From positions 1-46,803 of the forward strand of contig JADLDB010000020.1 of the NCBI GenBank assembly GCA_020846875.1: a stretch of 46,803 nt of DNA, written 5' to 3'. Both the position numbers and the translations under genes were made by a program. Source of the DNA: Myxococcales bacterium. GTDB taxonomy: Bacteria > Myxococcota > Myxococcia > Myxococcales > Myxococcaceae. Below, in pieces: positions 14,601-41,646 of this stretch. Every line of letters begins with the position of its first letter. The stretch's first letter is position 1. The notes beneath the pieces are model-generated. The model did not search any database and was not told where the DNA came from. It saw only the letters and a list, made by a program, of their open reading frames with translations.

Positions 14601-14614
14601 TGACACGGCTGTCA
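14601..14614. promoter_or_regulatory. Inverted repeat, candidate enhancer for the sigma-54 promoter
   Basis: TGACA (14601-14605) and TGTCA (14610-14614) form a perfect dyad with a CGGC centre. It lies about 87 bp upstream of the -24 box at 14701, within the range where bacterial enhancer-binding proteins act. It also sits just after the SDR stop and could contribute to its 3' end. The cognate activator is not identifiable here. Confidence 0.35.
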
Positions 14615-14639
14615 TGCAGGGCGCCCTCGCGCGCCCTCC

Positions 14640-14669
14640 CGCAGGGCTCCAGAGCTCCCTAACCCTGCG
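14640..14669. repeat. 7-bp inverted repeat upstream of the sigma-54 promoter
   Basis: CGCAGGG (14640-14646) and CCCTGCG (14663-14669) are exact complements with a 16-nt loop. It lies between the TGACA/TGTCA dyad and the -24 box. It may be a second protein-binding site or a hairpin ending the upstream transcript. No T-run is present. Confidence 0.35.
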
Positions 14670-14700
14670 TGAGTACAAAGGAATGTGACGCGAGGCAGCA

Positions 14701-14716
14701 TGGCACCCCGGTTGCT
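14701..14716 (+). promoter_or_regulatory. Sigma-54 (RpoN) promoter, consensus -24/-12
   Basis: TGGCACC-N4-TTGCT matches the sigma-54 consensus TGGCACR-N4-TTGCW in nearly every position. The GG (14702-14703) and GC (14714-14715) doublets are spaced as required. Transcription would start near 14727. No open reading frame of usable size lies directly downstream on this strand; a terminator does. Confidence 0.72.
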
Positions 14717-14726
14717 CAGGAAGGAG

Positions 14727-14803
14727 CGAAGTAGGAGATCCCATTGGGGGATTTCCGACGCCCACCGCCTCGGCCGGCCCCGAGACGGTGGGCGGTTTTT
14801 TTT
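14727..14803 (+). ncRNA. Candidate sigma-54-dependent small RNA
   Basis: From the predicted start 12 nt after the GC doublet to the end of the T-run the transcript would be about 77 nt. It folds into two hairpins. The first pairs 14734-14742 with 14748-14756 (GGAGATCCC/GGGATTTCC, one G-U pair). The second is the terminator at 14760-14793. The single-stranded leader contains TAGGAG, which resembles a Shine-Dalgarno sequence. No start codon with a matching downstream frame is apparent. The upstream gene ends at 14583 and the facing gene ends at 14822, so the RNA lies in its own intergenic space. Myxobacteria have a known developmental sRNA (Pxr), and a comparison is warranted, but I cannot confirm identity. 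Confidence 0.6.
14760..14803 (+). terminator. Strong rho-independent terminator
   Basis: GCCCACCG (14760-14767) pairs with CGGTGGGC (14786-14793), and inside it CTCGG (14769-14773) pairs with CCGAG (14780-14784). Eight T residues follow at 14796-14803. On the opposite strand no U-tract follows, so it serves plus-strand transcription. It is the only textbook hairpin-plus-T-run terminator found in the window. Confidence 0.85.
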
Positions 14804-14821: not shown

Positions 14822-15286
14822 TCAGGGCGCCGCTGGATCGCTCTTCGGCGGGCTCTTCCCGGGAAGCTCTGCGGAGAAGGGCCCTTCGTCCTGGCTCTCT
14901 ACCAGCCACGCCGAGTCGCGCCACACCATCGAGGTGGTGATGACGGCCTTCTTCTCGGTGCCGTCGGGCAGGCGGTACCAGGACAGCTTCGAGACGACGG
15001 TGGCGGACATTTGGTCGGCGGCCACCACCGCGTCCTCCAGCTGGAAGTCGGTGATGAAGAGATCCCGCTCGTCTTCATTCTTGAGCCGCGCCTTGATGAA
15101 GGCCGCGCGGCGCTCGGGCACGAGGCGATCCGCCGCGCCCCGGTAGTCCTTCCAGCGCAGCGCCTGGTGGAAGCTCTCGATCGCCGGCTTGATCTCCTCG
15201 GGGTCGCCCTTCCCGCTCAAGGTGGCGCAGGCGCCGGCGGCGAGCGCGGCGACGAACAGGCAGGGGAAGGTGACGCGGTGGCTCAT
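14822..15286 (-). CDS. Small putative lipoprotein, NTF2/SnoaL-like
   Basis: 154 residues. The signal peptide (1-about 20) ends in AGAC, a lipobox-like site, so an envelope lipoprotein is likely. The mature part has an alpha-plus-beta pattern (helices near 35-70, strands near 85-140) compatible with an NTF2-like fold, without recognisable catalytic residues. The C-terminus is Pro/Lys-rich. The ATG at 15286 is chosen because the signal peptide starts there and a TACCGT hexamer lies 8 nt upstream; an alternative 6 codons upstream is weaker. It faces the small RNA terminator and diverges from the large TPR gene. Function unknown. Confidence 0.72.
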   Translation of the reverse strand: MSHRVTFPCLFVAALAAGACATLSGKGDPEEIKPAIESFHQALRWKDYRGAADRLVPERRAAFIKARLKNEDERDLFITDFQLEDAVVAADQMSATVVSKLSWYRLPDGTEKKAVITTSMVWRDSAWLVESQDEGPFSAELPGKSPPKSDPAAP

Positions 15287-15294
15287 GGTGCGCG

Positions 15295-15320
15295 ACGGTA
15301 GCACCGGCCGTTGCTAGGGT
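15295..15320. promoter_or_regulatory. Divergent -10-like hexamers for lipoprotein and TPR genes
   Basis: On the minus strand TACCGT (15295-15300) ends 8 nt before ATG 15286. On the plus strand TAGGGT (15315-15320) lies 18 nt before ATG 15339, giving a leader of about 11 nt. The two promoters nearly abut, so the genes could compete for RNA polymerase. Confidence 0.35.
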
Positions 15321-39185: not shown

Positions 39186-39209
39186 GCGGCCTCTCGCGCT
39201 TCAGGCCGC
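39186..39209. terminator. Hairpin between cdd and the sigma-54 activator gene
   Basis: GCGGCCT (39186-39192) pairs with AGGCCGC (39203-39209) over a 10-nt loop. The right arm begins in the stop codon of the activator gene. It could serve both convergent genes; there is no T-run. Confidence 0.45.
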
Positions 39210-40832
39210 GGGCGCCACGGCGAAGCCGCCCTGCTGGTAGGCCTTCAGCTTGCGGAACAGGGTGGCCTGGCCGATGCCCAGCCGCTCGGCGGTGCGGGCG
39301 CGGTTGCCCTTCTCCGCCGACAGGGTGGCGAGGATCGCCTCCCGCTCCAGCTCGGCCAGGGTGTGGCCCACCGGCGCCCTGCGGGAGACGGCCGGCGGAG
39401 CGCGCAGCTCGTCGGGCAGATCGTCCACCTCCACGCGCCGGCCGGTGGCCAGCACCGTGGCGCGCTCCATGGCGTTGAACAGCTCGCGTACGTTGCCGGG
39501 CCAGGGCCAGGCCGCCACCCGCCGCAGCGCCTCGGGCGCCAGCTCCCGCACCGGCAGCTTCGAGCGCCGCGCCGCCTCCGACAGGGCGAGGCGGGCCAGC
39601 GGCAGCAGATCCTCCGCGCGCTCGCGGAGCGGCGGCACGCTCAGCTCCACCACCCGCAGCCGGAAGAAGAGATCTTTCCGGAAGCGCCCGGCCTTCACCT
39701 CGGCGTGCAGGTCGCGGTGCGTGGCTGCCAGCACCCGCACGTCGATGGCCCGCGTCTTGTTCTCGCCCACCCGGCGCACCTCGCGCTCCTGCAGCACGCG
39801 CAAGAGCTTGGCCTGCATCGCCGTGGGCAGCTCGCCCACCTCGTCCAGCAGCAGCGTGCCGCCCTTCGCCGCCTCGAACAGGCCGGCGCGATCGGTCACC
39901 GCCCCGGTGAAGGCGCCGCGCGCGTGGCCGAACAGCTCGCTCTCGAGCAGCGCCTCGGGCATCGCCGCGCAGTTGATCGCCACGAAGGGACCGGCCTGAC
40001 GGGGCGAGGTCTCGTGGATCAGCCGCGCCACCCGCTCCTTGCCCACGCCCGACTCGCCCAACAGCAGCACCGTGGCGTCCACCGCCGCCACCCGCTGGGC
40101 CTGGGACAGGACGGCCTTCATCGCCGCGCTCCGCGCCACCAGCCCCGTGCTGTCCTCCGCCTCGCGCTCGCGCCGCCGCGCCGCCAACTGCCGGTCGACC
40201 TTCTTCCAGTCCTGCTGCAGCCTCTTGAGCGCGCGCGTCAGGCAGTCCGCCTCGTAGAAGGCCAGCTCGGCCTGCTGCTCCGCAGGCCAGTCCTCCTTCG
40301 CGCGCCCCAGCAGGCGGCACACCGGGTCGCCCTTCCCGCGGCACGCCGTCTCCAGGCAGTAGATGGTGCGTCCATTGACGAACGAGAGGTAGCCCGACGC
40401 GAAGCCCGTCAGCGTCCAGCACACGCAGCCGTCCGCGCGGCCGTGGTGCAGCAGGTGCTGCTCCGCCTCGTAGCTGTCGTGCCACACCGACTCGGCGAAG
40501 GGCGGCGGCGTCAACGAAGGCTCCTTCACCGGCTCGAACACCACCATCCCGTGCAGCCGGTGCAGCCGCCCGCCCGCCACCCGCCACTCGCGCTCGTCGT
40601 CCCACTCAATCGCCGTCTTCATCGCCTCCGCCACCCGCCAGCCATGGCTGAAGCCGAAGCGCGTCAGCGTGGCCCGCGCCCCCGACAGCCCGAAGCTCTC
40701 GATCAACTGCGCGCGCAAGATCCCCATCGCCACCGCGTCCAGCAGCACCACCCGCTCTCCCGCGAAGGTCATCACCCCCCCGTCCGGCGAGAACTCGAAG
40801 ACGTCAGTCAACTGCAGGTTGCGGGCTCTCAT
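39201..40832 (-). CDS. XylR/DmpR-type sigma-54-dependent activator
   Basis: 543 residues. An XylR-N-like region (about 5-100) and a V4R domain (about 115-175, with Cys136, 138, 159, 164 and 172 available for a metal) form the ligand-sensing half. The AAA+ domain has Walker A GESGVGKE (259-266), the sigma-54 contact loop GAFTGA (306-311) and Walker B TLLLDE (326-331). A Fis-type helix-turn-helix lies at about 507-530. Homologues such as XylR and DmpR bind aromatic effectors and activate catabolic genes; the effector here is unknown. ATG 40832 is 9 bp from a dyad resembling XylR-family sites. The gene diverges from a pirin gene that has a sigma-54 promoter, its most likely target. Confidence 0.92.
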
Positions 40833-40840
40833 GAATGACT

Positions 40841-40851
40841 CTCAATTTGAG
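40841..40851. promoter_or_regulatory. Dyad CTCAATTTGAG, candidate activator binding site
   Basis: CTCAA and TTGAG are exact inverted halves around a central T. The core TCAATTTGA resembles the TCAATTGA centre of XylR/DmpR upstream sites. It is 68 bp upstream of the -24 box at 40919 and within the predicted leader of the activator gene, where binding could also repress that gene. Confidence 0.45.
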
Positions 40852-40918: not shown

Positions 40919-40934
40919 TGGCACGCGACCTGCT
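40919..40934 (+). promoter_or_regulatory. Sigma-54 promoter of the pirin gene
   Basis: TGGCACG-N4-CTGCT matches TGGCACR-N4-TTGCW with one mismatch (C for the first T of the -12 box). The GG and GC doublets are 12 bp apart. The start site would be near 40945, only 3 nt before ATG 40948, so the Shine-Dalgarno-like GGAG at 40937-40940 would not be in the mRNA. The adjacent, divergent sigma-54 activator gene strengthens the call. Confidence 0.62.
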
Positions 40935-40947
40935 TTGGAGCGACGGC

Positions 40948-41646
40948 ATGATCACGATTCGACGAGGCACGGAGCGCGGCGCGGCGGACCACGGCTGGCT
41001 GGACACGAAGCACACCTTCTCGTTCGCCGACTACTACGACGCCAGGCACCTGGGCTTTCGGCAGTTGCGGGTGATCAACGAGGACCGGGTGATGCCGGGG
41101 CAGGGCTTCGGCACGCACCCGCACCGGGACATGGAGATCGTCTCGTACGTCCTCGCGGGCGGGCTCCAGCACAAGGACTCGATGGGGAACGGCAGCGTCA
41201 TCAAGCCCGGCGACGTGCAGCGGATGAGCGCGGGCACCGGCGTGCTGCACTCGGAGTACAACGCCTCCACGACGGATCCCGTCCACTTCCTGCAGATCTG
41301 GCTGCTCCCGGCCCAGCAGGCAATCGCCCCCGGCTACGAGCAGAAGACCTTCAGCGACGCCGAGAAGCGTGGGCGGCTCAGGCTGGTGGCTTCTCCCGAC
41401 GGCAGCGACGGCTCCGTCACCATCCACACCGACGCGAAGCTGTACGCCGCCGTCCTGGGGCCGGGCGAGCAGGCGGAGCTCCCCCTCCCGAAGTCGCGAC
41501 ACGCCTGGGTGCACGTCGCGCGCGGGCAGGTGAAGGCGAACGGGCACCTGCTGGTGGCGGGAGACGGCGCGGCGCTGTCCGACGAGGCGAAGGTGACGTT
41601 GGAGGGCGTCGAGGGCGCCGAGGTGTTGGTGTTCGACCTCGCCTGA
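40948..41646 (+). CDS. Pirin-family (YhhW-like) cupin protein
   Basis: 232 residues with two cupin halves. The N-terminal cupin has metal ligands His57, His59, His101 and Glu103 (HPH and HSE), as in pirin and in YhhW, which has quercetin 2,3-dioxygenase activity in vitro. The C-terminal cupin (about 135-230) lacks a comparable set. The natural substrate is unknown; an aromatic or flavonoid-like compound would fit the XylR-type regulator next door. ATG 40948 is chosen over GTG 40918, since the latter would translate through the sigma-54 promoter. It converges with the DUF1295 gene inside a shared hairpin. Confidence 0.9.
   Translation: MITIRRGTERGAADHGWLDTKHTFSFADYYDARHLGFRQLRVINEDRVMPGQGFGTHPHRDMEIVSYVLAGGLQHKDSMGNGSVIKPGDVQRMSAGTGVLHSEYNASTTDPVHFLQIWLLPAQQAIAPGYEQKTFSDAEKRGRLRLVASPDGSDGSVTIHTDAKLYAAVLGPGEQAELPLPKSRHAWVHVARGQVKANGHLLVAGDGAALSDEAKVTLEGVEGAEVLVFDLA

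Follow-up and report, generated by a model that had tools for sequence, protein, structure and literature searches.

A predicted sigma-54-dependent small RNA family, probably trans-acting, in Myxococcaceae and two neighbouring families

The question raised by this locus is whether a 238-bp intergenic stretch, bounded by the gene of an NAD-dependent epimerase (Pfam PF01370; 13651..14583, + strand) and the convergent gene of a putative lipoprotein of 160 aa without Pfam family (14822..15304, − strand), contains a gene of its own, and if so how that gene is controlled and what its product does. The window, by which we mean the whole 46,803-nt stretch of Myxococcales DNA that was analysed (contig JADLDB010000020.1 of assembly GCA_020846875.1), holds in this short space a dyad, a sigma-54-type box, two hairpins and a run of eight T residues. 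A first-pass annotation had read these elements as a sigma-54-driven, terminator-ended small RNA (sRNA) gene with an enhancer-type dyad, a reading that our comparative sequence evidence supports. Positions 14727-14803 are almost certainly a real sRNA gene. As a whole, the locus is best explained by a new, vertically inherited sRNA family of the Myxococcaceae and two neighbouring families, which would be driven by sigma-54 and an activator and would act in trans, and we consider this account likely. The sRNA family itself is new, while its kind, the sigma-54-dependent regulatory sRNA, is already known. Myxobacteria are a model for bacterial multicellularity and possess many sigma-54 activators, and the literature that we found on their trans-acting sRNAs treats only Pxr in depth.

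Fold and covariation of the RNA

The predicted non-coding transcript spans ~77 nt (14727..14803, + strand), its start being placed 12 nt after the −12 C, and its homologues score 50-100 bits. It would fold into hairpin 1 (14734..14756, + strand), with a 9-bp stem and the pentaloop AUNGG at 14743-14747, and hairpin 2 (14759..14794, + strand), a terminator stem with the apical part CGG-CCGGCC-CCG and its loop at 14774-14779, followed by the T8 tail of the intrinsic terminator (14796..14803, + strand). The two hairpins and the eight T residues had been noted before, and all of them are found again in relatives. The two-hairpin fold has a free energy of −43.8 kcal/mol and a z-score of −4.7 (78-nt stretch versus shuffles). 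A simple terminator scan reported nothing in the region, despite the plain stem-loop and T8.

Covariation is evident in both hairpins, in agreement with the structure first proposed. Among 48 aligned copies, in an alignment fitted to the covariance model, 95.1% of pair cells are standard and double changes occur in 18 of the 24 pairs (8/9 in hairpin 1 and 10/15 in hairpin 2); double-changed cells number 142, against 44 in shuffles and 8-18 when the partners are slid. An independent MAFFT alignment (n=24) gave 10 pairs with double changes and 53 such cells versus 20. The loops are nearly invariant while the stems vary. Of the 47 aligned rows that include loop 1, 46 read AUNGG and one ends in U instead of G; the central position tolerates any base (U 25, G 16, A 5, C 2), and the loop may be closed by C-G, G-C or A-U. 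Loop 2 is CCGGCC in 48/48 copies. Pairwise identity among homologues reaches 0.57-0.95 in the RNA versus 0.27-0.34 in most of the upstream region. Covariation thus shows the second step of the mechanism that we propose, in which the RNA would fold as two hairpins and end at the second, an intrinsic terminator.

The transcript could also be a short mRNA encoding a small protein, and some homologues do contain short chance frames. However, no open reading frame is common to the homologues, a frame of at least 8 codons is absent from the transcript in most of them and in the window, and changes in loops and stems track pairing, not codons. The earlier statement that no protein fits therefore stands, and the probability of a coding function is, in our view, practically nil.

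Promoter and upstream elements

We consider the gene very probably sigma-54 dependent, judging from the conservation of its upstream elements. The −24/−12 promoter TGGCACC-CCGG-TTGCT (TGGCACCCCGGTTGCT; 14701..14716, + strand) matches the consensus exactly, as first annotated; it is the sole exact match to TGGCAC-N5-TTGCW in the window, where 0.11 would be expected, and it is conserved in relatives. Of 28 homologues, 24 have a perfect box and three a box with one mismatch, and pairwise identity among homologues is 0.68 in the box versus ~0.29 around it. The dyad TGACA-N4-TGTCA (TGACACGGCTGTCA; 14601..14614, + strand), presumably the site of a sigma-54 activator, begins 17 bp after the end of the epimerase stop codon and lies 100 bp upstream of the box. 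Its chance expectation in the window is 0.00, and the whole 7.06-Mb genome contains only two such dyads. Most homologues keep this element, also pointed out in the first-pass annotation, at a set spacing: one or two dyads are present, at ~100 and ~146 bp from the box on its upstream side; where both occur, 45 bp separate them. The 7-bp inverted repeat that had been proposed as a further upstream element falls in a stretch without conservation, and we do not retain it. A further set of 30 named or metagenome-assembled loci, many of whose records are the same genomes as the family sample, has a box in 29 cases and a dyad in 23, both counted within one mismatch.

The first step of the mechanism, strongly supported by this conservation, would be the binding of sigma-54 RNA polymerase at the −24/−12 box, fired by an enhancer-binding protein on one or two dyads. 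In about half of the homologues, an IHF-like site between dyads and box suggests DNA bending: such a site (at most one mismatch) occurs upstream of the box in 13/28, in 12 of these at 41-53 bp, compared with 0.4 in shuffles. At the promoter in the window itself, no sequence comes within one mismatch of an IHF site. The distance from box to loop 2 is either ~71 or ~120 nt, so that a short form, seen in the window, can be told from a long one extended at its 5′ side, whose candidate additional 5′ hairpin gives weak z-scores.

A search for dyad-N76-106-box as a joint pattern gave a single match in each of 56 of the 96 family genomes; 53 of these matches are at the RNA, and the reversed control gave 0. 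Since the pattern is almost confined to the RNA, the activator seems, within the strict consensus, to have the RNA as its main target, and the RNA may be transcribed only when this dedicated activator is switched on. The gene of sigma-54 itself, rpoN, was found in 11 of the 12 genomes checked and missed in one, a reduced 2.1-Mb draft. Control by sigma-54 is not universal: in genus g20 (2-3 Mb genomes) the RNA is kept behind a promoter that, in the one case read, has a degraded box and no dyad, and no box is recognisable at L116, a copy from f3, or at the duplicate L115. The g20 case (L122 in G019, a 2.7-Mb genome) is an example of the RNA being kept in a strongly reduced genome with both box and dyad degraded.

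Genomic setting and distribution

The order acyltransferase, epimerase, RNA, lipoprotein, TPR protein is syntenic in most genomes; the epimerase is kept beside the RNA in the family, and the lipoprotein gene in most of it, with one genus in which the latter is parted from the RNA. Where relatives retain the flanking genes, they also conserve promoter and hairpins. It would be tempting to regard the element as merely the terminator of the upstream acyltransferase-epimerase operon, conserved along with that operon, as most of the family has it just downstream of the operon, and its T-run is a good one. Against this, gene and hairpins are separated by a sigma-54 box and dyads that are conserved, another hairpin is conserved together with its fixed loop, and nearly invariant loops are not needed for termination. 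Moreover, the unit persists next to different genes in L029, L118 and f3, most f3 copies retaining box and dyad, usually with one mismatch, and one genome has a second RNA copy at another locus with its own perfect dyad and perfect box. The RNA unit is not tied to the epimerase operon, and a terminator function alone is very unlikely.

The layout also invites the idea that the RNA is a cis-acting antisense or 3′-end partner of the lipoprotein gene, the convergent arrangement being kept in most of the family with 3′ ends that almost touch. Yet the window RNA stops 18 bp short of that gene, extra genes intervene in genus g5 (first one whose sequence suggests an ECF sigma factor, then another), and the neighbour is missing in f2, f3 and L118, so we hold such a partnership to be extremely unlikely. 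In G013 the RNA is placed after the lipoprotein gene instead. At the g5 loci L084, L104, L106, L107 and L093, the ECF sigma factor-like gene and the second gene, perhaps that of an anti-sigma factor, immediately follow the RNA with the same orientation, and read-through from the RNA promoter is conceivable.

A different kind of change is seen in Myxococcus, where 2-4 tandem units of the hairpin pair, spaced at 71 bp, stand behind one shared promoter in each genome; we take the genus to be Myxococcus because it carries the Pxr primer sequence exactly. The T-runs that end the internal units are weaker, for example TTTCTTG or ATTCTTG, and the last unit ends in TTTCTTTT; read-through of the internal copies would therefore yield multi-site RNAs. 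Such 71-bp arrays with weakened internal terminators are present at L119, L120, L121, L125, L126 and L048, their copy number varying between species.

The family is nearly universal in the sampled genomes of its home lineage. Searching the DNA of 60 related genomes turned up a homologue in each of the 35 others from the same bacterial family. With a covariance model trained on 24 homologues, the RNA was detected in 95 of 96 same-family genomes, one genome from family f2 and five from f3 (E < 1e-9), f2 and f3 being further families of the order to which Myxococcaceae belong. The rest of the 195-genome phylum sample gave no RNA match at E 1e-4; some f5 genomes have weak matches with E above 1e-4, which look like generic hairpins. 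A pattern scan of a named collection of 84,980 species returned only Myxococcaceae, Archangium, Corallococcus, Hyalangium and similar records, plus one alphaproteobacterial match (L076), which has no match to the covariance model and which we attribute to chance.

No credible match was found in Rfam 15 at gathering or lax thresholds (best 19.3 bits where 79 are needed), and no description of the RNA in the open-access literature, subscription papers being outside the search. Being nearly universal in the sampled family and undescribed in Rfam and the papers searched, it makes a strong candidate for a hitherto unknown regulatory RNA of a much-studied bacterial group. A transcriptome paper on M. 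xanthus counts unnamed sRNAs without analysing them (PMC9548883), so the transcript may already sit unseen in those data.

Known RNAs, mode of action and candidate activators

The tie to the developmental sRNA Pxr that the first-pass annotation had drawn did not survive comparison. Pxr resembles our RNA in its bacterial group, its sigma-54 promoter, and its stem-loops with an intrinsic terminator, and it has paralogous tandem copies in some genera (PMC5568312), all of which could suggest a homologue or paralogue. However, Pxr lies downstream of pxrR, measures 108 nt and has three stem-loops; locus, sequence and loops are different, both invariant loops and the dyad are missing from it, and ~1.03 Mb separate the two within one Myxococcus genome. 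The model did not match Pxr with default filters, and with filters off it gave 17.2 bits versus 50-100 for homologues, a value no better than a generic hairpin would give, within the 12-28 bits of the antisense strands of true copies and below the 22-28 bits at which these often score. Kinship with Pxr we regard as having a negligible probability. What emerges instead is a second, widely conserved sRNA in Pxr-bearing genomes, with a single-target-like sigma-54 promoter.

Three other kinds of sRNA offer parallels. GlmY, which acts by sequestering the protein RapZ, is one of them. Like our RNA, enterobacterial GlmY, controlled by QseE/QseF, has a sigma-54 promoter with several activator sites and IHF sites before the sRNA gene (PMC8745638); it differs in the QseF/GlrR site, TGTC-N10-GACA versus TGACA-N4-TGTCA here, and no Rfam match to GlmY/GlmZ was obtained. 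RNAs of the CsrB/RsmZ type, with their repeated hairpins and fixed loop motif, recall the Myxococcus arrays, but their loop motif is GGA and not AUNGG. Qrr and CrcZ are sRNAs driven by sigma-54 and a dedicated enhancer-binding protein, have multiple copies in some species and use Hfq. Our RNA shares with them the predicted sigma-54/activator drive and the multiple copies in some species; by contrast, it has no sequence relation to them in Rfam, and its class is without the Hfq on which they depend.

In 145 genomes of the class, CsrA was found in none, control genomes being positive, and Hfq was likewise absent. A CsrA sponge is ruled out by the absence of CsrA from the class and by a loop that is AUNGG and not GGA, an Hfq-dependent sRNA by the absence of Hfq from the class, and thus the usual sRNA partners are ruled out. 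The loops have stayed nearly unchanged across three families lacking both proteins.

The third step of the mechanism, in which the RNA would act in trans via its nearly invariant loops, could take two forms. We lean towards a protein that binds the AUNGG pentaloop hairpin and that the RNA would carry or sequester, although we put protein binding as the main mode of action at slightly under an even chance. It is preferred because the free central base and the interchangeable closing pairs of the pentaloop speak more for a hairpin read by a protein than for an antisense seed, and the tandem multiplication of the hairpin pair fits protein titration. The case for sequestration rests on three features read from sequence, namely loop conservation, the free middle base of loop 1 and the tandem copies, and these do little to decide between protein binding and base pairing. 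A tentative but serious alternative is that the same sRNA gene acts by base pairing of its loops or 5′ leader with mRNAs, as an Hfq-independent antisense-type RNA of the sort proposed for Pxr. Base pairing is the common mode among bacterial sRNAs, the invariant, C/G-rich CCGGCC of loop 2 would suit a seed, and Pxr works without Hfq in the same bacterial group (PMC5684412). On the other hand, a central base in loop 1 that varies freely between fixed neighbours is odd for an antisense seed, and the lack of Hfq in the class also speaks against pairing. Targets are not predictable from the loops here, because GC-rich loops are too common.

Taking protein binding further, we speculate that the RNA might be the titrating partner of a lineage-specific RNA-binding protein recognising AUNGG, in a role like that of CsrA/CsrB or RapZ/GlmY, with its level set by one dedicated sigma-54 activator that has almost no other target and with its capacity raised in Myxococcus by tandem duplication. 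This fuller scenario is, in our estimation, unlikely to hold in all its parts.

The dyad provides a handle on the enhancer-binding protein of the RNA. Among known myxobacterial activators, NmpR recognises GCGCA-N5-TGCGC (PMC11841059) and Nla28 recognises CT(C/G)CG(C/G)AG (PMC7910581), and both sites differ from the TGACA-N4-TGTCA dyad. Other dyads of this form lie near scattered genes, some with sigma-54-like boxes, and none is obviously beside an enhancer-binding-protein gene. They include sites L151 1966, L152 1964, L154 1974, L156 1980, L162 1996 and L164 3876, several of which have a sigma-54-like box 66-125 bp away and some of which adjoin putative lipoprotein genes; these dyads are possible further targets of the same activator. 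The window also contains, 25 kb from the RNA, a gene for a sigma-54 enhancer-binding protein with XylR_N, V4R, AAA+ and Fis-type HTH domains (39204-40841, − strand), and no evidence ties this protein to the RNA. Divergent from that gene, TGGCACGCGACCTGCT at 40919-40934 (+ strand) has one mismatch to the sigma-54 consensus and lies ~14 nt upstream of the codon at which the gene that ends at 41646 probably starts.
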